Both the position numbers and the translations under genes were made by a program. Shown here in pieces: positions 19,806-27,988 of a stretch of DNA of 64,000 nt (position 1 is the stretch's first letter; every line of letters begins with the position of its first letter). The stretch comes from Bacteroidia bacterium. GTDB taxonomy: Bacteria > Bacteroidota > Bacteroidia > J057. The notes beneath the pieces were generated by a model that saw only the letters and a program-made list of their open reading frames with translations, was not told where the DNA came from and searched no databases. The stretch is from assembly GCA_019695295.1 (NCBI GenBank), contig JAIBAH010000007.1, positions 1 through 64,000 on the forward strand. The letters run 5' to 3'.

Positions 19806-19807
19806 AA

Positions 19808-21643
19808 TCAGGAATTGCCGGGGGGAGGGGAGAGGTTTTTGTTGTTTTTCCAGCGGTAAAGGGTTTCGGGGGTGATGGAATCCCCCATTTTTTTGAAGTG
19901 GACAGAAGCTTTTAAAGCACTTCCAAAGTAATTGATAGCCCAGTCGGCAAAATCTGCTTTAAATTGATGCTGCATTTGTTCTAAACTTTTCTCGGGATCA
20001 AAATATGAAATTTGAGCCGGCTGAAGCAGTAGTTTTTTGAACTCAGCTTTGGTATATTCAAACGCAGTTTTAAATCCGAGTAATTTTTTTAACGCTTCGT
20101 CAAAATGTAAAAAATTATGGTAGTACAAGGCAATTCTTTGCAGGTCTCTGAAATTTCCATATAAAGGCTCATCAACCAGCCACTGAATTAACTCTTTTTC
20201 TTTGGGAGCGTCTTCCATTTCTCCGAAATTCATTTGTTTCCATATCATTTTCCAGTCTTCTTGTCTATCCTTTTCACTCTCCCTTAAAGAAGGTAGGTAA
20301 ATGCAATTTTGTGCAATTCGGTCAAAAAAATCTTCGTGCAGTTTTTCTCTCAATTCCGGAATGCTGCGGTTTGTAGCAAAGATGAGGGTGCATTTTATTT
20401 TTTCAGGTTTTGCTCCCCCTAACCTTGTAATACTAAAGTCATTATTCTCATCTGTCTCGATTGCCTTCATTAATTTTTCCTGTACCCGTTTCGATAAATG
20501 ATGAATTTCATCTAAAAACAAAATCCCCCCTTTTGCTTGCTGAAATAATCCGTTCGTTTTTTCGTATGCTCCCGTAAATGCTCCTTTTTCGTATCCAAAC
20601 AGACTACTTTCTGCCATAGTATCGTCCGCAAAAGACGCACAATTTATGTCTTTGAAATTTAAATTATTTTTGTTGTATTTTCTCGCCAGGTGGGATTTTC
20701 CTACACCTCTTTCCCCAAAAATTAAAATCGAAAATCCGGAATTAATAAAATGTTTCATTAATGAATCAGCAATTTTTCGCTTTTCAGATTGAGGTTTGAT
20801 GTAAATTGGGTGTGAACCTAACTTTTCGAAAAGATTAACCGGAATTTCTTTGATGAAAAAAGGATTAAACCTTCGGTCATTCCCTTGATTTTTACTGTCG
20901 TAAGTCTGAATAAAGTGAGTATCAGAAGGCAGTTTGCCTGCCTGACTTAGTGCGTGCCATACGACTTGTGTCTCTGCACTTCCAAGGCTGATATTGATAT
21001 ATAAAGTTGCATCTGGATGTTTTTTAATTATGGAGGCTATGAATATTTCTACTGATTGAATAATCTCCTGTGGGTTTCTAAGGGCATTGATACCAGTGTC
21101 ATATTCATGAAATTTTTCATGATACAAATCTTTAATAGTACTGAATTCGCAGAACCATTTTATCTGGTCTTTTATCTGATAATGCTGAATATCTCTCCAT
21201 AACGTCCCCATGAATTTATTGTATTGTTCCGGATAATGACACCTTACAAAGTCAATATCTTTTTGTAAATCAGGGAGATAATCCGGATTTTTGATATCTT
21301 CGCTTAATAAAAGGGAATTCCAAACCGTTTTTATACCGGTCTCGATAATGACCTCATCTTCTGGCATTTCCGCTCTGTATTTTATACGGTTCGAGACCTC
21401 ATTAAATACAGATTGCGAAGCAGTTAGATAATAAACGTGGTCAAATACAAAACCATTCACTCCATTGGGTGATTGCGCAAATACCTTTTCGTTTTCACTT
21501 TGAATAATGTCTGTCCAGTCAATTTTATTTTGACTAAGGCCTCGTTTGTAAAACTCAGCGAGCACCTGTTTCAAAAAAGCGATTCCGTGTGTAGTATAAT
21601 GCCAGGTAATAAATATGTTTTCGTTTTTTTTGAGATTTTTCAT
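19808..21643 (-). CDS. RtcR-like regulator: CARF-like sensor plus sigma-54 activator AAA+ domain
   Basis: A 611-residue protein. Residues ~8-255 resemble a CARF/Rossmann sensor, with an N-terminal beta strand FITWHYTTHG and a late ligand-loop-like strand YINISLGSAETQVVWHAL (215-232). This matches the layout of RtcR, the sigma-54 activator of RNA-repair genes. The AAA+ domain has Walker A GERGVGKS (310-317), the sigma-54-contacting GAFTGA loop (354-359), Walker B LFLDEI (375-380), ATNR (423-426), FDRI and sensor II GNFRDLQRI (497-505). A possible recognition helix lies at ~585-600. No rtcA or rtcB is present. It is divergent from a small lipoprotein gene bearing a sigma-54-like promoter. Confidence 0.8.
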   Translation of the reverse strand: MKNLKKNENIFITWHYTTHGIAFLKQVLAEFYKRGLSQNKIDWTDIIQSENEKVFAQSPNGVNGFVFDHVYYLTASQSVFNEVSNRIKYRAEMPEDEVIIETGIKTVWNSLLLSEDIKNPDYLPDLQKDIDFVRCHYPEQYNKFMGTLWRDIQHYQIKDQIKWFCEFSTIKDLYHEKFHEYDTGINALRNPQEIIQSVEIFIASIIKKHPDATLYINISLGSAETQVVWHALSQAGKLPSDTHFIQTYDSKNQGNDRRFNPFFIKEIPVNLFEKLGSHPIYIKPQSEKRKIADSLMKHFINSGFSILIFGERGVGKSHLARKYNKNNLNFKDINCASFADDTMAESSLFGYEKGAFTGAYEKTNGLFQQAKGGILFLDEIHHLSKRVQEKLMKAIETDENNDFSITRLGGAKPEKIKCTLIFATNRSIPELREKLHEDFFDRIAQNCIYLPSLRESEKDRQEDWKMIWKQMNFGEMEDAPKEKELIQWLVDEPLYGNFRDLQRIALYYHNFLHFDEALKKLLGFKTAFEYTKAEFKKLLLQPAQISYFDPEKSLEQMQHQFKADFADWAINYFGSALKASVHFKKMGDSITPETLYRWKNNKNLSPPPGNS

Positions 21644-21663
21644 ATTTTGTAATTATGATGTAA

Positions 21664-21691
21664 ATATCATATATATAATTAATATATCATA
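21664..21691. repeat. Two direct 8-base repeats spaced two helical turns apart
   Basis: ATATCATA occurs at 21664-21671 and 21684-21691, start to start exactly 20 bases, between the CARF-AAA+ gene and the sigma-54-like promoter. It may be an activator binding site for the divergent regulator, but the region is very AT-rich and chance is possible. Confidence 0.4.
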
Positions 21692-21743
21692 AAATATGTT
21701 TATTTTATTTTTTTAATTTATTGATTAATAGAGTATTAATATT

Positions 21744-21759
21744 TGGCAATGTTTTTGAA
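21744..21759 (+). promoter_or_regulatory. Candidate sigma-54 promoter facing the small lipoprotein gene
   Basis: TGGCAATGTTTTTGAA aligns with the TGGCAC-N5-TTGCA pattern with correct spacing. The -24 GG is intact and the -12 GC reads GA. Transcription would start near 21770, about 43 bases before the start codon. The divergent gene encodes a sigma-54 activator, which strengthens the call. Confidence 0.5.
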
Positions 21760-21812
21760 TATAATGAAATGTGATTTTATTAATTTAACCATTTTCTAAT
21801 CGAATTAAATTT

Positions 21813-22181
21813 ATGAAAAAAAGTACTTTTTTATTAGTAACAGTAGGTTTGTTGGTGCTATTTAGCTCTTGTAAGCCGACAATGTACACCACCCACACGA
21901 GTAATGAGATTAATTCAAGTGTGATTCTGACCAAAAACAATTTCAAAAACCTGGGGACTTTCTCCGGATTAGCGACAGCGAGAATGAATACAATTGGTGT
22001 AAAAAACAGAGAAGGAGTAATCAGTGAGGCAAGGAAAAACTTATTACAAAATGCTAAAGCAGCAGGAGTGGAATTAACGGGTTCCAGAACGTTGGTGAAT
22101 ATGTCAATTGATGCTGTGAGCAACAGTAATAGGGTTACCGTTACAATTGTTTCCGATATTATTGAATTTACAGGAGAATAA
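21813..22181 (+). CDS. Small lipoprotein, possible target of the divergent RtcR-like regulator
   Basis: A 122-residue protein with signal segment FLLVTVGLLVLF and lipobox cysteine in SSCKPT (C20). The mature part begins PTMYTTHTSNEINSSVIL and forms predicted beta strands ending in VTVTIVSDIIEF; it looks like the DUF6567/heavy-metal-associated small lipoprotein group in Bacteroidota, but no function is known. It is divergent from the CARF-like activator and has the sigma-54-like promoter upstream, so it may be the regulated gene, which would be unusual for an RtcR relative. Confidence 0.75.
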   Translation: MKKSTFLLVTVGLLVLFSSCKPTMYTTHTSNEINSSVILTKNNFKNLGTFSGLATARMNTIGVKNREGVISEARKNLLQNAKAAGVELTGSRTLVNMSIDAVSNSNRVTVTIVSDIIEFTGE

Positions 22182-22254
22182 TAACTTTCATACGAGGTTT
22201 GCCGAAAATCGTATCTCAAAGAGTAGGCATACATTTTTTAATTTAATTACTTTT

Positions 22255-22395
22255 ATGGCAAAGGAAATTAAACCTAAGGACAATCAGTCCAATCAGCAAA
22301 ACCCGAATAAAGGAACTCCCGGGACAAACAAACAGTACGACCAAAATCAGGGAAACAAGGGTAAACAAAAGAACCCGAATCAGACGAAAAAGTAG
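22255..22395 (+). CDS. Small hydrophilic Asn/Gln/Lys-rich protein
   Basis: A 46-residue frame starting MAKEIKPKDNQSNQQNPNK and ending in QNPNQTKK-like sequence. It is almost wholly Lys, Asn, Gln, Gly and Pro, with a repeated NPNKGTPGTNKQYDQNQGNKGKQ-type pattern of short NQ/GN units. Such small disordered proteins recur in Bacteroidota genomes. An in-frame start further upstream at 22147 overlaps the lipoprotein gene and is less likely. It lies 73 bases after the lipoprotein stop and could share its transcript. Function is unknown. Confidence 0.55.
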   Translation: MAKEIKPKDNQSNQQNPNKGTPGTNKQYDQNQGNKGKQKNPNQTKK

Positions 22396-22578
22396 AGTGT
22401 CAGCCGTCGCTGTGTATAGAAATATGCTCAGCGACGGAAAAATTAGAGCGGTGAGTCATAATACCTTGTTTGGCTGCGATAACATTCCCTTTAAAACTCG
22501 TCTGAGAAAGGAATACATTTTTTGTTTTTTTAGTAATTTAACTCAAATTTAGGACTTGTTTTATCTTGATTTAGATTT

Positions 22579-22613
22579 TTTGGAAATAAATTGATTAATA
22601 AATACTATTTTTG
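22579..22613 (+). promoter_or_regulatory. Probable promoter of the five-gene cassette
   Basis: TTTG (22579-22582) and TATTTTTG (22606-22613) lie 26 bases before the glycosyltransferase start. The spacer is 23 bases, slightly longer than the usual 19-21, so this may be a weaker promoter. Confidence 0.45.
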
Positions 22614-22639
22614 TCTCAGCAATAATTACATTTTTTAAG

Positions 22640-23917
22640 ATGAAGATATTGAAAATTATTCATGGATACCCGCCGGATTACAACGCAGGTTCTGAAGTGT
22701 ACAGCCAATCAATTTGTAATGAGTTGTCAAAGAAACACAGTGTTTTTATTTTTACAAGAGAGGAAAATCCATACACCGCTGATCATAAGATTGTTCGAGA
22801 AGTAAGAGAAAATATGGTTTTTTACATTTCCAATAAAGCAAGAGAAAAAGATGGCTATCGTCATTTGGATTTAGATGAAAAATTCAGAGATATTGTGACA
22901 GAAATTCAGCCTGATGTAGCACATATCGGACATTTGAATCATCTCTCAACCGGTTTTGTTGGTGTGTTAAAAGGGATGAGTATTCCGATTGTCTATACAC
23001 TTCACGATTTTTGGCTGATGTGTCCGCGAGGACAATTTTTACAGATAAATTTTGGAAATCCAGCTTTTCATCAGCTTTGTACCGGTCAGGAAAATCATAA
23101 ATGTGCAGTAAATTGCTACAATCGTTATTTTTCAGGGAAAAGTATAGACAAAGAACGAGATGAAAAATATTGGGAACAATGGGTAGAAAGCAGGATGGAA
23201 GAAACCCGGAGCGTTCGGGATGCTGTTGATTTATTTATAGCACCTTCCAGATACCTTATTCACCGTTTTATTACTGACTTTGAAATGCCTCAAGAAAAAA
23301 TAATATATTTGGATTATGGTTTTCCGCTTCATTATCTTTCCCCTACCGAGGAAAGCGCACAAAGGGAAACCTTTGTATTTGGATACATCGGTACGCATAT
23401 TCCGTCGAAAGGGATTGATTTACTGATTCAGGCTTTTAAGCAAATCAATCAAAAAGCCAGACTAATGATTTGGGGGCGTGAAAACGGACAAAGTACAAAA
23501 AACCTAAAAAAAATGGCTAACGGTAGTCTAAATCCGATTGTATTTTGTGGTGAATATATCAACACGAATTTGGCAAAAGAAGTGTTTTCAAAGGTGGATT
23601 GTATCGTTGTCCCTTCTGTTTGGGGCGAAAATTCTCCTTTGGTAATTCATGAAGCACAAGCTTGTGGCATTCCGGTGATTACCGCTGACTTTGGCGGTAT
23701 GTCAGAGTATGTGAAGCATCAAGAAAACGGTTTGCTTTTTACCCACCGAAACAAAGACGATTTGGCAAAACAAATGATTTTTGCAATTTCTCATCCCAAT
23801 GAAATGAAATCCATGGGGAAAAGAGGGTATTTGCATGGGGATTCGGTTCCTGATATCGAAACACATTGTAGGGAGTTGGAAAGAATTTATCATAAAATAA
23901 TCAATGAAAAATCATAA
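22640..23917 (+). CDS. Family 4 glycosyltransferase
   Basis: A 425-residue GT-B fold enzyme. The donor-side motif is the EX7E-type ENSPLVIHEAQACGIPVITADFGG near residues 332-355, preceded by PSVWGE. The N-terminal domain begins KIIHGYPPDYNAGSEVYSQS, typical of sugar transferases that build polysaccharides or modify proteins. It is the first gene of a five-gene set: the radical SAM gene overlaps it by 14 bases. The acceptor is unknown; an unusual cysteine-bearing stretch (HQLCTGQENHKCAVNCYN, ~150-168) is an insertion worth noting. Confidence 0.88.
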   Translation: MKILKIIHGYPPDYNAGSEVYSQSICNELSKKHSVFIFTREENPYTADHKIVREVRENMVFYISNKAREKDGYRHLDLDEKFRDIVTEIQPDVAHIGHLNHLSTGFVGVLKGMSIPIVYTLHDFWLMCPRGQFLQINFGNPAFHQLCTGQENHKCAVNCYNRYFSGKSIDKERDEKYWEQWVESRMEETRSVRDAVDLFIAPSRYLIHRFITDFEMPQEKIIYLDYGFPLHYLSPTEESAQRETFVFGYIGTHIPSKGIDLLIQAFKQINQKARLMIWGRENGQSTKNLKKMANGSLNPIVFCGEYINTNLAKEVFSKVDCIVVPSVWGENSPLVIHEAQACGIPVITADFGGMSEYVKHQENGLLFTHRNKDDLAKQMIFAISHPNEMKSMGKRGYLHGDSVPDIETHCRELERIYHKIINEKS

Positions 23918-24932
23918 TATCTGGAGAATAACGCTGGATACAAATCCGGAAGACTGTAACCTTCAATGTACTATGTGTGAGGAGCATAGCCCTTTTTCGA
24001 CCTATATTAAGGAAAAACTGGGAGGGAAGCGCAGAAGAATGCCTCAAGAATGGCTTCGTCCTGTTTTTGAGCAGGCAAAAGCAATGGGAGTAACCGAAAT
24101 CATTCCCTCCACAATGGGGGAGCCTTTGATATATAAACATTTTAGTCTTTTTGTGGAGTTATGCTATGAATATGGATTAAAAATGAATCTGACAACAAAC
24201 GGGACTTTTCCAAAAACAACCGAAAAGACTGTAACAGAATGGGCAAAACTAATCGTCCCGGTTACTTCTGATGTGAAAATCTCCTGGAACGGAGCTACTC
24301 AGGATACATCCGGAAAGGTCATGATTGGGATAGATTTCGCCCATACGATTCAAAATCTAAAAGAGTTTGTAGCTGTAAGGAACCTGCATTTTGAAAAAAC
24401 AGGCTACTATTGCCGGATTACGCTTCAGCTTACGTTTATGCAAAATAATATGCATGAATTAGGGGCGATTGTTAAGTTGGCAGCAGAACTGGATATTGAC
24501 CGTGTCAAAGGACATCACCTTTGGGCTCATTTTGACGAGATTAAAAAGTTATCTTTTCGTGAAAACGATAAATCTATCAATCAATGGAATCTTTACGTTA
24601 GAGAAGCAATGGAAGCACAGGAAAAATACCGGAAACCCAATGGAGAAAAGATCATTCTGGAAAACATCATCCCTCTTCAACCTCAGGAGACCCGGGAAAT
24701 TCCGTTTGAGTATGAATGCCCCTTCCTGAACCGGGAACTCTGGATATCCGCAACTGGTAAAATATCTCCTTGTTGCGCTCCGGATGAACAAAGGAATAAG
24801 TTGGGAGATTTTGGAAATTTCGAAAACACAAGACTGGAAGACGCCGTTCTAAGTGAAAATTATCAAAATTTATGCTTGAATTACAAGGAAATTCCTCTCT
24901 GTAAAACATGTACAATGAGAAAACCTGTATAA
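23904..24932 (+). CDS. Radical SAM/SPASM-like enzyme
   Basis: A 342-residue enzyme. The iron-sulfur ligands C18, C22 and C25 form CNLQCTMC near the N-terminus, the canonical CxxxCxxC that generates the 5'-deoxyadenosyl radical. The C-terminal region is SPASM-like, with cysteines in YECPFLN, ISPCCAPDE, LCLNYKEIPLCKTCTM, suggesting extra clusters that bind a substrate peptide or sugar. SPASM proteins commonly modify peptides or anaerobic sulfatases, but the substrate is unknown. It overlaps the glycosyltransferase by 14 bases and ends 12 bases before the phosphatase gene. Confidence 0.9.
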   Translation: MKNHNIWRITLDTNPEDCNLQCTMCEEHSPFSTYIKEKLGGKRRRMPQEWLRPVFEQAKAMGVTEIIPSTMGEPLIYKHFSLFVELCYEYGLKMNLTTNGTFPKTTEKTVTEWAKLIVPVTSDVKISWNGATQDTSGKVMIGIDFAHTIQNLKEFVAVRNLHFEKTGYYCRITLQLTFMQNNMHELGAIVKLAAELDIDRVKGHHLWAHFDEIKKLSFRENDKSINQWNLYVREAMEAQEKYRKPNGEKIILENIIPLQPQETREIPFEYECPFLNRELWISATGKISPCCAPDEQRNKLGDFGNFENTRLEDAVLSENYQNLCLNYKEIPLCKTCTMRKPV

Positions 24933-24944
24933 AGAAATTTATTT

Positions 24945-25595
24945 ATGACACCTGATATTATCTTTGATTTAAATGATAGGGTTCTCAATTTCAGGGATGC
25001 CGCAACCTTAAACCCGAAACTCAAAAAAGGAAAAATTTTCAGGTCATCTTCCTTGACCCAGTACCAGAATGAAGCTTTTTTCCCGGATTTGATTCAGGCA
25101 TACTCCATCACCAAAGTAATTGATTTACGGGATGAGGACGAATATACTGAAAATCCCTACACAGATGAAGCAAAATCTCTTTTTACACATCTTTTGATGA
25201 GCATTGATCCCCGTAAACAGTCTGTAAATTTCATAAAAAATTTTCATTATGGCACTAATCATGAGATTGCATACAGACACTATGCCGTGGAACATCAGCA
25301 TATATTCAGGAGGTTCTTTGAGGAGGTAAATCCTGAAACCGATATTATTCTTGTCCATTGTCATGCAGGAAAGGATAGGACAGGGGCTTTAGTCGCCCTG
25401 GTTGCTTTGCTCCTGGGGGAGTCCATGGATAATATCCTAAAAGATTATCTTAAGAGTGAGGCTGATACTGAACCCCAAAAGCTGCAATCGTTTCTGGAAA
25501 TTGTAAGAAGAGCAGGAGGCGCGGCAGAATATTTACAAAATTGTGGTGTAAATGAAACCTGTATCAATCACTGGATAAAACATCTGTCATCATGA
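24945..25595 (+). CDS. Tyrosine/dual-specificity phosphatase (Y_phosphatase3-type)
   Basis: A 216-residue phosphatase with the P-loop HCHAGKDRTG (C139 nucleophile, R145) and the NFRD motif near residue 15 that opens Y_phosphatase3 enzymes. These act on protein phosphotyrosine, phosphoinositides or small molecules. In this cassette it might remove a phosphate from a sugar or peptide intermediate. Its stop overlaps the start of the carbamoyltransferase gene as ATGA, implying translational coupling. It has no transmembrane or signal segment, so it is cytoplasmic. Confidence 0.9.
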   Translation: MTPDIIFDLNDRVLNFRDAATLNPKLKKGKIFRSSSLTQYQNEAFFPDLIQAYSITKVIDLRDEDEYTENPYTDEAKSLFTHLLMSIDPRKQSVNFIKNFHYGTNHEIAYRHYAVEHQHIFRRFFEEVNPETDIILVHCHAGKDRTGALVALVALLLGESMDNILKDYLKSEADTEPQKLQSFLEIVRRAGGAAEYLQNCGVNETCINHWIKHLSS

Positions 25596-27256
25596 ATCAT
25601 CGCCCAACTTTAGCAATATACGGAATTAAAGACCGTAATACATTTGGCTCACCAGGATATACACACGACCATAATCTGTGTTTAATGCAGGATGGAAAAA
25701 TTCTTCAATATCTTCATTTGGAGAGAATCAGCCGAATAAAATTTGACAACAATCTGGACCATTGGCTGGAGCGGCTTATAGATGAGCAGGCATTGGATTT
25801 GCCGGAATCCTTTGACTTTGTAAGTGTTAATTCCTTCGTTGGTAATGCTTTTATCTCTAAAAACGGAAGAATACGATTTGAGACTGCACCCCAAAAAAAA
25901 CTATCCTGCGATTTGACAGAGGGCTTTTCCTGGTTTGAGTCCCGAAACTGGACTGGAAAGTCGGTTAGTGCTTATAATTGTTCTCAGGAATTGGCTCATA
26001 TTGGAAGTTGTTTGCCTTTTTTTGGAGAGTTCCAGGATAATAGCTTATGGATACAATTTGACGGTGGCTCAAGTCTGGGTAATTTTTCGGCATTTTACTA
26101 TAAAAACGGGTTGATTCACCTTCTGGAAAATCACTGGGAATTAGTGTACCTGTCTAAATTTTTTAATAATAACCCTTTTATTTTCCGCATTTTACAATCC
26201 CTCCCGGGTGATCACTGTAGCGTACCGGGAAAACTTATGGGCTATGCATGTTGGGGAAATTATTCCGAAGATATCGAAATCTGGCTTAGCAATAATGATT
26301 ATTTTAGTGATTACTGGAACAGAGAAAACGAAATTCTGTATTCTGCCAGTAAAACTTTTGGTGTAAATATCCCTGATTTTGACAATAAAGCGTTGTTCTT
26401 ACAGTCGGTGGCAGCTACGCTTCAGCATATTTTTGAAAGGGAGTTTATTCAGAAAGTCAAAGCATTACAAACTCAAACCGGGGCTGATAAATTATATTAT
26501 TCAGGCGGTTGTGCATTAAATATTCTTGCTAATTCTAAACTTGTTCATGAAAACATCTTCAAACAGGTCTTTATACCCCCTTGCTGTAATGATAGTGGAT
26601 TAAGTATTGGAGGAGCTGCATTACTGGAAAGAAAAAAAGGAAACGAAATTTCACTTCATTCTCCCTACCTTAATAATATGGGCATTAAAAATGAAAAACT
26701 ACCGCAGATTTCAAACGATTTAATCCGGGAAACTGCTCTGATTCTGATGAATAAAGGAATTATTGGAGTATGTAACGGAAACGCAGAAGCCGGCCCGAGA
26801 GCTTTGGGAAACCGAAGCCTGATTGCTTTGCCTGATTCTAAATCCCTTGCTGAACATTTGAGTCGTAATATCAAAAAAAGAGAGTGGTACAGGCCGGTTG
26901 CTCCGATTATGCTCAGCGAGATAGCTCAAAAAGTAGCTTGTGAAGCAATTCATCCTTTGGCAAAATATATGCTGATGGATTTTACCATTAAACCGGAATA
27001 TAAAAAGTCTTTAATCGGAGTTATACATGCAAATGGTACTACGAGAATTCAAATATTAACAGAAGAGAAGGAAAACCCCTTTATGTACCGGTTATTGTCC
27101 TTTTTATTCAAAGAATATGGTATTTTAGCATTAATTAATACTTCATTTAATATACAGGAACCCATTATCCATACCCCTGAAAATGCGATGGCTTCTGCTC
27201 AGAAAATGAAACTGGATGCTATTGTTCTCAATCATACACTAATTAATCTGAAATGA
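25592..27256 (+). CDS. NodU/CmcH-type carbamoyltransferase
   Basis: A 554-residue member of the carbamoyltransferase family (NodU, TobZ, CmcH), which puts a carbamoyl group from carbamoyl phosphate on a hydroxyl of a sugar, antibiotic or nodulation factor. The N-terminal YTHDHNLCL region, the YSGGCALN block and the C-terminal YrdC-like part (GNAEAGPRALGNRSLIA, KKREWYRPVAP) are present, so both active sites look intact. It sits inside a tightly coupled operon and overlaps both neighbours as ATGA. The likely product is a carbamoylated glycan or modified metabolite. Confidence 0.9.
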   Translation: MNHRPTLAIYGIKDRNTFGSPGYTHDHNLCLMQDGKILQYLHLERISRIKFDNNLDHWLERLIDEQALDLPESFDFVSVNSFVGNAFISKNGRIRFETAPQKKLSCDLTEGFSWFESRNWTGKSVSAYNCSQELAHIGSCLPFFGEFQDNSLWIQFDGGSSLGNFSAFYYKNGLIHLLENHWELVYLSKFFNNNPFIFRILQSLPGDHCSVPGKLMGYACWGNYSEDIEIWLSNNDYFSDYWNRENEILYSASKTFGVNIPDFDNKALFLQSVAATLQHIFEREFIQKVKALQTQTGADKLYYSGGCALNILANSKLVHENIFKQVFIPPCCNDSGLSIGGAALLERKKGNEISLHSPYLNNMGIKNEKLPQISNDLIRETALILMNKGIIGVCNGNAEAGPRALGNRSLIALPDSKSLAEHLSRNIKKREWYRPVAPIMLSEIAQKVACEAIHPLAKYMLMDFTIKPEYKKSLIGVIHANGTTRIQILTEEKENPFMYRLLSFLFKEYGILALINTSFNIQEPIIHTPENAMASAQKMKLDAIVLNHTLINLK

Positions 27257-27957
27257 AATACAACGAAATTAAACTTGCTGCTGATTATACGCATTTTCTT
27301 TATCAGGAAGAAATCCTTTTTGGAAAATCTTTTTTGCATGTACTTAAGTTTCATGCTGAGGGATTGGCTGCTGTATGCGATGATTCTGGATGGTATCATA
27401 TTGATTTAAGGGGAAATCAATTGACCCCGAAAAGATATGACCGTACCTTTGGGTTTTATTTTGGTCGTGCCGCTGTAATTGAAAAAGGCAATTTTTTTCA
27501 CCTCGATACAGAAGGGGTAAGGGTATATCCCGAATGCTATGCGTGGTGTGGTAATTATCAGGAGAAAATCTGTACTGTAAGAGATTTTGATGGTAAATAT
27601 TTTCATATTGACTTAAATGGCACCGCTGTTTATACCTCAAAATATACTTATGCCGGTGATTTTAAGGATGGTTTTGCTTGTGTCAGGCTTGAAAATGGTC
27701 TTTTTAAACATATTGATTGCAAGGGTAATTATCTGAATGCCAAAGCATTTAATGACTTAGGGGTATTTCATAAAGGTATAGCAACTGCTAAAGATGCTGG
27801 CGGTTGGTTCCATTGTAATCTAAAAGGCAATGAGCTATATCCCCGTAGATTTGCTGTAATCGAGGTCTTTTACAACGGATTTGCTTTGGTTGAGGAATTT
27901 GGAGGCCAAAAATGTGTGATTAATGAATCAGGAGAAACAGTAATTGTTTTAAAATGA
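27253..27957 (+). CDS. WG-type repeat protein with HID repeat motif
   Basis: A 234-residue protein made of about six 35-residue repeats. The conserved core is G-W/F-[YF]-H-[IL]-[DN]-x-x-G, with histidines at 49, 83, 118, 153 and 187 (spacing 34-35) and a degenerate sixth unit near 220 (KCVINESG). This matches WG/KWG repeats, which form beta-propeller or solenoid surfaces that bind partners. No signal peptide is seen, so it is cytoplasmic. It overlaps the carbamoyltransferase by ATGA, is last in the operon, and may hold the pathway enzymes or the substrate. Confidence 0.8.
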   Translation: MKYNEIKLAADYTHFLYQEEILFGKSFLHVLKFHAEGLAAVCDDSGWYHIDLRGNQLTPKRYDRTFGFYFGRAAVIEKGNFFHLDTEGVRVYPECYAWCGNYQEKICTVRDFDGKYFHIDLNGTAVYTSKYTYAGDFKDGFACVRLENGLFKHIDCKGNYLNAKAFNDLGVFHKGIATAKDAGGWFHCNLKGNELYPRRFAVIEVFYNGFALVEEFGGQKCVINESGETVIVLK

Positions 27958-27988
27958 ATATTATTGTGTTCTAAAACCATCCCCTACC

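Follow-up and report, generated by a model that had tools for sequence, protein, structure and literature searches.

A mobile glycosyltransferase, radical SAM and WG-propeller cassette accompanied by an RtcR-type regulator in Bacteroidota, related to the Undecim Cluster of phage WO

What could be made by an operon that places a glycosyltransferase, a radical SAM/SPASM enzyme, a phosphatase and a carbamoyltransferase in front of a WG-repeat protein, and do these genes belong together at all? We addressed this question for a 64,000-nucleotide stretch of a Bacteroidia genome (contig JAIBAH010000007.1), hereafter the window. The five ORFs and the annotations given in an earlier note on this DNA were borne out by ORF coordinates and Pfam domains, its four junctions (in gene order, a 14-base overlap, a 12-base gap and two ATGA overlaps) proved exact, and its view of the genes as one operon encoding a modification-type enzyme set is supported. 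It overlooked the regulator, the boundaries of the insertion, the exchangeability of the PTP and the carbamoyltransferase, the relationship to the Undecim Cluster, and the fact that relatives occur in defence islands and in a prophage. The locus contains the following features:

19806-27988, unstranded: inserted segment of about 8.2 kb, missing from a same-genus relative
19808-21643, minus strand: RtcR-type regulator, 611 aa, with a divergent CARF domain, a sigma-54-type AAA+ domain with GAFTGA, and an HTH-like C-terminal end (Pfam, PADLOC, Foldseek)
21813-22181, plus strand: DUF6567 lipoprotein-like passenger (Pfam PF20205, 2.1e-15)
22191-22229, plus strand: DUF805b-type cis-regulatory RNA element immediately 5' of the peptide ORF (Rfam RF02914, 34.9 bits, E 6.6e-8, slightly below the gathering score of 35.6)
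22255-22395, plus strand: 46-aa Asn/Gln/Lys/Gly-rich peptide ORF, upstream of GT4
22640-23917, plus strand: GT4 glycosyltransferase, 425 aa, core gene (Pfam Glycos_transf_1, 1e-30)
23904-24932, plus strand: radical SAM/SPASM enzyme, 342 aa, core gene (Radical_SAM 6e-9, SPASM 2e-8)
24945-25595, plus strand: PTP/DSP-type phosphatase, 216 aa, phosphatase slot (Y_phosphatase3, 4.4e-31)
25592-27256, plus strand: O-carbamoyltransferase, 554 aa, capping slot (Carbam_trans_C 9e-48, N-terminal domain 4e-19)
27253-27957, plus strand: WG-repeat protein, 234 aa, a small beta-propeller, core gene (WG_beta_rep, 4e-14)

The E(x7)E catalytic motif of the GT4 can be read in ENSPLVIHE, and the radical SAM motif CNLQCTMC (CxxxCxxC at residues 18-25) and the PTP catalytic motif HCHAGKDR were read directly. 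The next gene after the WG gene is mutS on the minus strand, with no further plus-strand gene there, and within the operon we found no transporter, resistance gene or obvious acceptor-making enzyme.

The same-genus genome G403 provides an empty site: its CoA-transferase and mutS coding regions lie about 10 bases apart and are colinear with those of the window, so that the regulator, the small genes and the five-gene operon form one segment which is absent there. This comparison with a single genome is compatible both with gain in the window lineage and with loss in the relative; the patchy distribution of the radical SAM gene (14/395 genomes of the class, 2/396 of the phylum and 3/22 of the order, every count including the window's own) favours gain. 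The window copy is surrounded by housekeeping genes, such as those for ribosomal proteins, mutS and hisS; a protein combining NYN and OST-HTH/LOTUS domains is encoded at positions 302-1063 on the minus strand.

Rare co-occurrence of the five genes elsewhere would speak against a functional unit, as the earlier note had pointed out, and for the three core genes a search for conserved neighbourhoods revealed the opposite. Nine Bacteroidota loci were found by searching genome contigs for the WG protein, and the others came from a radical SAM profile search, phage WO and an Arsenophonus plasmid; two loci cut by contig ends (L012 and L013) were not counted. By tblastn, GT4, radical SAM and WG occur together in all 25 loci with enough contig, and they do so again in the prophage locus L121, i.e. 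in 26/26. Because the first nine loci were recovered via WG, those from the radical SAM profile constitute an independent test of co-occurrence. The order GT4, radical SAM, WG is nearly constant. GT4 and radical SAM, separate in the window, are a single fused ORF in many relatives, and the phage WO and Arsenophonus copies have WG and an O-methyltransferase joined in one protein. Near-identical cores are present in different families (e.g. genomes G198, G607, G584 and G533), indicating transfer. WG by itself was discarded as a marker of the cassette: it matches in 67 of 396 phylum genomes, mostly through other WG families, and the matches that were fetched had no GT4, radical SAM, PTP or carbamoyltransferase gene in their 1.5-kb flanks.

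The cassette is thus a real, mobile enzyme set, in which a fixed core of GT4, radical SAM/SPASM and WG beta-propeller is combined with exchangeable helpers. The phosphatase slot is occupied in 21/25 loci by a PTP, a Polbeta nucleotidyltransferase-PTP fusion or a histidine phosphatase, and the PTP and histidine phosphatase are nearly exclusive, co-occurring once (P 0.003, with loci treated as independent, though they are related). In the capping slot, six of the 25 loci have a carbamoyltransferase, nine an O-methyltransferase and ten neither of the two, and no locus has both (P 0.045, with the same treatment of related loci as independent). On the GT4 plus radical SAM tree, each cap requires five changes, against a mean of about five for shuffled labels, and caps have therefore been swapped independently of the core. 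A carbamoylated glycan or peptide, which the earlier note had put forward as the likely product, does not hold as the common theme, since the carbamoyltransferase is one option among loci.

Outside Bacteroidota, the same core is found in Wolbachia phage WO (WD0613-WD0614, part of the Undecim Cluster) and on Arsenophonus plasmids. The window GT4 and radical SAM proteins are homologous over their full length, at 46% and 51% identity and in the same order, to WD0613, which is a GT4-radical SAM fusion, and the WG protein is 48% identical to its homolog, the N-terminal domain of WD0614. In the accessible text of PMC4701759, WD0614 is annotated as hypothetical with an O-methyltransferase, its WG part being unnamed; the same paper mentions genes in Desulfovibrio, Haliangium, Capnocytophaga and Saprospira that may be homologous and syntenic to some of WD0612-WD0615. 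The Undecim Cluster comprises WD0611-WD0621 of phage WO, with copies in Rickettsia, Cardinium and Phycorickettsia; its function has been called unknown, and roles connected with exopolysaccharide, LPS and cytotoxins have been predicted (PMC9203015), and it is strongly expressed, and duplicated in an obligate Wolbachia (PMC9203015, PMC12801941). In contrast to the phage cluster, the window has split GT4 and radical SAM genes, a stand-alone WG and a carbamoyltransferase in place of the WG-fused O-methyltransferase, and possesses in addition the PTP and the RtcR-type regulator, whereas the epimerase, PhyH, ABC transporter and two threonine aldolases of the cluster are absent between 19806 and 27988. 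Furthermore, the cluster resides in phage WO and endosymbionts, while the window copy is a chromosomal insertion between CoA-transferase and mutS. In Bacteroidota, the core is available for experiments as a small modular cassette, free of the constraint of an endosymbiont that does not grow by itself, and offers a route to learning what the Undecim Cluster does.

The regulator belongs to the same unit as the operon, since it shares the inserted segment and a divergent gene recurs upstream of related cassettes: homologs of its AAA+ part are found in this position in 16/26 loci, one of them (L067) counted via clustering of a contig-end fragment. Its assignment is supported by Pfam Sigma54_activat (1.7e-37) and PADLOC RtcR_PspF1 CARF_AAA_HTH (2.3e-76); for the modelled N-terminal 292 residues (mean pLDDT 73), the best Foldseek matches were CARF proteins (Csm6, Cam1, Can2 and Cdn1), with probabilities of up to 1.00 and a best E of 9e-3, which is weak. 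It resembles RtcR of the rtcAB RNA repair operon in its CARF-AAA+-HTH architecture, in the GAFTGA loop and in its location beside an accessory operon, and differs in that, judging by position, it would control a glycoside-type cassette rather than rtcAB or a CoCoNuT. RtcR-like proteins have been linked to restriction-modification and CoCoNuT systems (PMC4012209, PMC11090510). The GAFTGA sigma-54 contact loop is kept in the window regulator, and RpoN is encoded in the same genome. Full CARF regulators are present in the window and at L010, L049, L068 and L069, the others having the AAA+ part alone, and several lack GAFTGA. At L073, GT4 is preceded by a -24/-12 site with a single mismatch, whereas the best candidate in the window has four mismatches, leaving no convincing sigma-54 site there. 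Given the good site at L073, the poor one in the window, and the loss of GAFTGA or CARF in several members, sigma-54 control is plausible for some cassettes and putative for the window. No publication linking the Undecim Cluster core with RtcR-like regulators, and none treating WG repeats together with radical SAM, carbamoyltransferase and glycosyltransferase enzymes, was found in the literature searched, in which few subscription papers were covered.

Many of the relatives lie among anti-phage genes. The 82 non-cassette proteins near 12 cassettes matched 67 PADLOC families at 1e-20 or better, as opposed to two for 82 control proteins from other regions of the same genomes; the controls come mainly from the beginnings of contigs and are not random draws, and since a single methyltransferase can match many models, counting families gives higher figures than counting proteins would. 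DruE adjoins the cassette of a named isolate, Arcticiflavibacter luteus SM1212 (L006), and other neighbours include an Hma/DrmD-type helicase with a methylase (L007), type IV and IIG enzymes (L008), AbiLi (L066), a type I methyltransferase (L070) and LmuB (L072). In the window, PADLOC found no family among 36 proteins around the cassette, and several other loci likewise have none. The five operon enzymes correspond to no catalogued PADLOC system, the only match being a weak one of the radical SAM protein to viperin. The defence-gene enrichment can reflect common insertion hot spots. The L121 cassette, on an IMG/VR viral contig predicted to be a Bacteroidota-type prophage, is located between holin/endolysin and integrase; the gap between lysis genes and integrase is a usual spot for accessory genes of temperate phages.

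With regard to chemistry, profile comparisons matched the GT4 to MshA-type models, among others; those with the radical SAM enzyme yielded weak matches to SuiB and to BtrN, in the latter case to its C-terminal part. The carbamoyltransferase, in which the N- and C-terminal domains of the TobZ/NodU family both score above the Pfam cut-off, is closest to TobZ (3.7e-39), although Gln132 replaces the first metal-binding His of the HxxxH pair, which is His in 5/5 homologs (QELAH versus HELAH). A second, more distant carbamoyltransferase is encoded in the window's genome (G000:C92:24558-25505, L002-L004; 36-41% in pieces). Aminoglycoside-type pathways (TobZ, BtrN, GT4) combine the same enzyme classes in one set; unlike them, the window operon has no aminocyclitol-making or aminotransferase genes, and the BtrN similarity is confined to the C-terminal part. 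Judged from their sequences, GT4, phosphatase, radical SAM/SPASM and TobZ-like carbamoyltransferase would fit the production of a small decorated glycoside. The WG protein has an AF2 model with a mean pLDDT of 96 that yields Foldseek matches to beta-propellers, and many invariant alignment columns are His; a sequence search for solved structures of the WG family found none. That the propeller serves as a ligand-binding partner is a guess.

Taken at somewhat less than even odds, the reading that we tentatively place first is that of a mobile, alarm-regulated biosynthetic cassette, whose product would most likely be a small decorated glycoside that serves against phage or under infection stress. 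The RtcR-type CARF protein would bind a nucleic-acid-derived alarm signal (damaged tRNA or RNA ends, in the case of true RtcR) and, where GAFTGA is intact, activate the divergent operon through sigma-54. GT4 would then glycosylate a small acceptor, the product may be oxidised or rearranged by the radical SAM enzyme, and an intermediate may be dephosphorylated by the phosphatase. A hydroxyl would be capped by the carbamoyltransferase or, in relatives, by the O-methyltransferase; the WG propeller might bind the intermediate or its target. The endosymbiont WD0613-WD0614 pair represents one branch of this core, accompanied by different helpers. An alarm regulator of RtcR type would here be tied to biosynthetic enzymes instead of nucleases, in islands rich in anti-phage genes. 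A bolder version, possible but doubtful, is a new class of induced chemical defence, in which CARF/RtcR-controlled decorated-glycoside cassettes borne by phages and islands were the source of the phage WO Undecim Cluster.

Other substrates have to be weighed against a small glycoside. Glycan decoration commonly involves GT4 enzymes along with O-methyl or carbamoyl caps, and the cassette may modify LPS, capsule or another envelope glycan, perhaps masking phage receptors. Such a role was predicted for WD0611-WD0613 by the authors of the Undecim Cluster study (PMC9203015), and sugar-nucleotide genes adjoin the Wolbachia copy. We consider it unlikely, as the Bacteroidota cassettes have no recurrent flippase, polymerase or obvious membrane protein, and as radical SAM/SPASM, nucleotidyltransferase-PTP and WG-propeller proteins are unusual for LPS decoration; RtcR-type control also speaks against it.

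SPASM enzymes often act on peptides, and the substrate of the radical SAM/SPASM and GT4 enzymes might be a ribosomal peptide, with the 46-aa Asn/Gln-rich one as a candidate, or the WG protein, which is always present and conserved. A related peptide ORF does stand directly upstream of GT4 in 5/26 loci (the window, L007, L048, L070 and L121), but it is absent from most, and its family (KGTxGTNxxYDKNQGNRGKQLNPNQ) is scattered through Bacteroidota, also in unrelated places (L088-L096): seven of the 11 class genomes with homologs, out of 390, have no radical SAM match, and in two cassette genomes (G726 and G705) the peptide is on another contig, the context being unrelated in every one of these. 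No dedicated form of the recurrent precursor gene that the earlier note had suggested looking for was found among the 26 loci, and the peptide is probably not a dedicated precursor. There is also no protease or transporter, and the WG protein is modelled as a compact, well-folded propeller, all of which makes peptide or protein modification a rather poor prospect, at still lower probability than envelope glycans. Modification of RNA ends or tRNA, with GT4 and radical SAM acting on damaged RNA together with the regulator, nucleotidyltransferase-PTP fusions and kinases, appears improbable. RtcR responds to damaged tRNA, according to the accessible text of PMC7790460, RtcB is encoded in the window's genome, and Polbeta nucleotidyltransferase-PTP fusions and nucleotide-type kinases are present in some cassettes; on the other hand, no RNA-binding domain was found, the Methyltransf_2/Dimerisation type to which the O-methyltransferase belongs acts on small molecules, the carbamoyltransferase is similar to enzymes of antibiotic synthesis, and the window has no nucleotidyltransferase.

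The remaining features upstream of GT4 are variable. The DUF6567 gene is not conserved with the cassette: none of the nine related loci found first has a match to it. Two families of proteins of about 100 aa occupy the first-gene slot elsewhere, one at L008, L067, L068, L069, L071 and L049 (about 300 bases upstream of GT4) and the other at L065 and L072; members of the first that were scanned have no Pfam match and by eye appear DUF4258/BrnT-like. An RF02914-type element precedes a different small ORF at L009 (4324-4356, 40.5 bits), and a motif resembling the DUF805b element is also present at L048 and L070. Another RF02914 element, at L096 (2796-2830), is followed by an ORF resembling a GG-leader peptide beside ATP-grasp-like genes.
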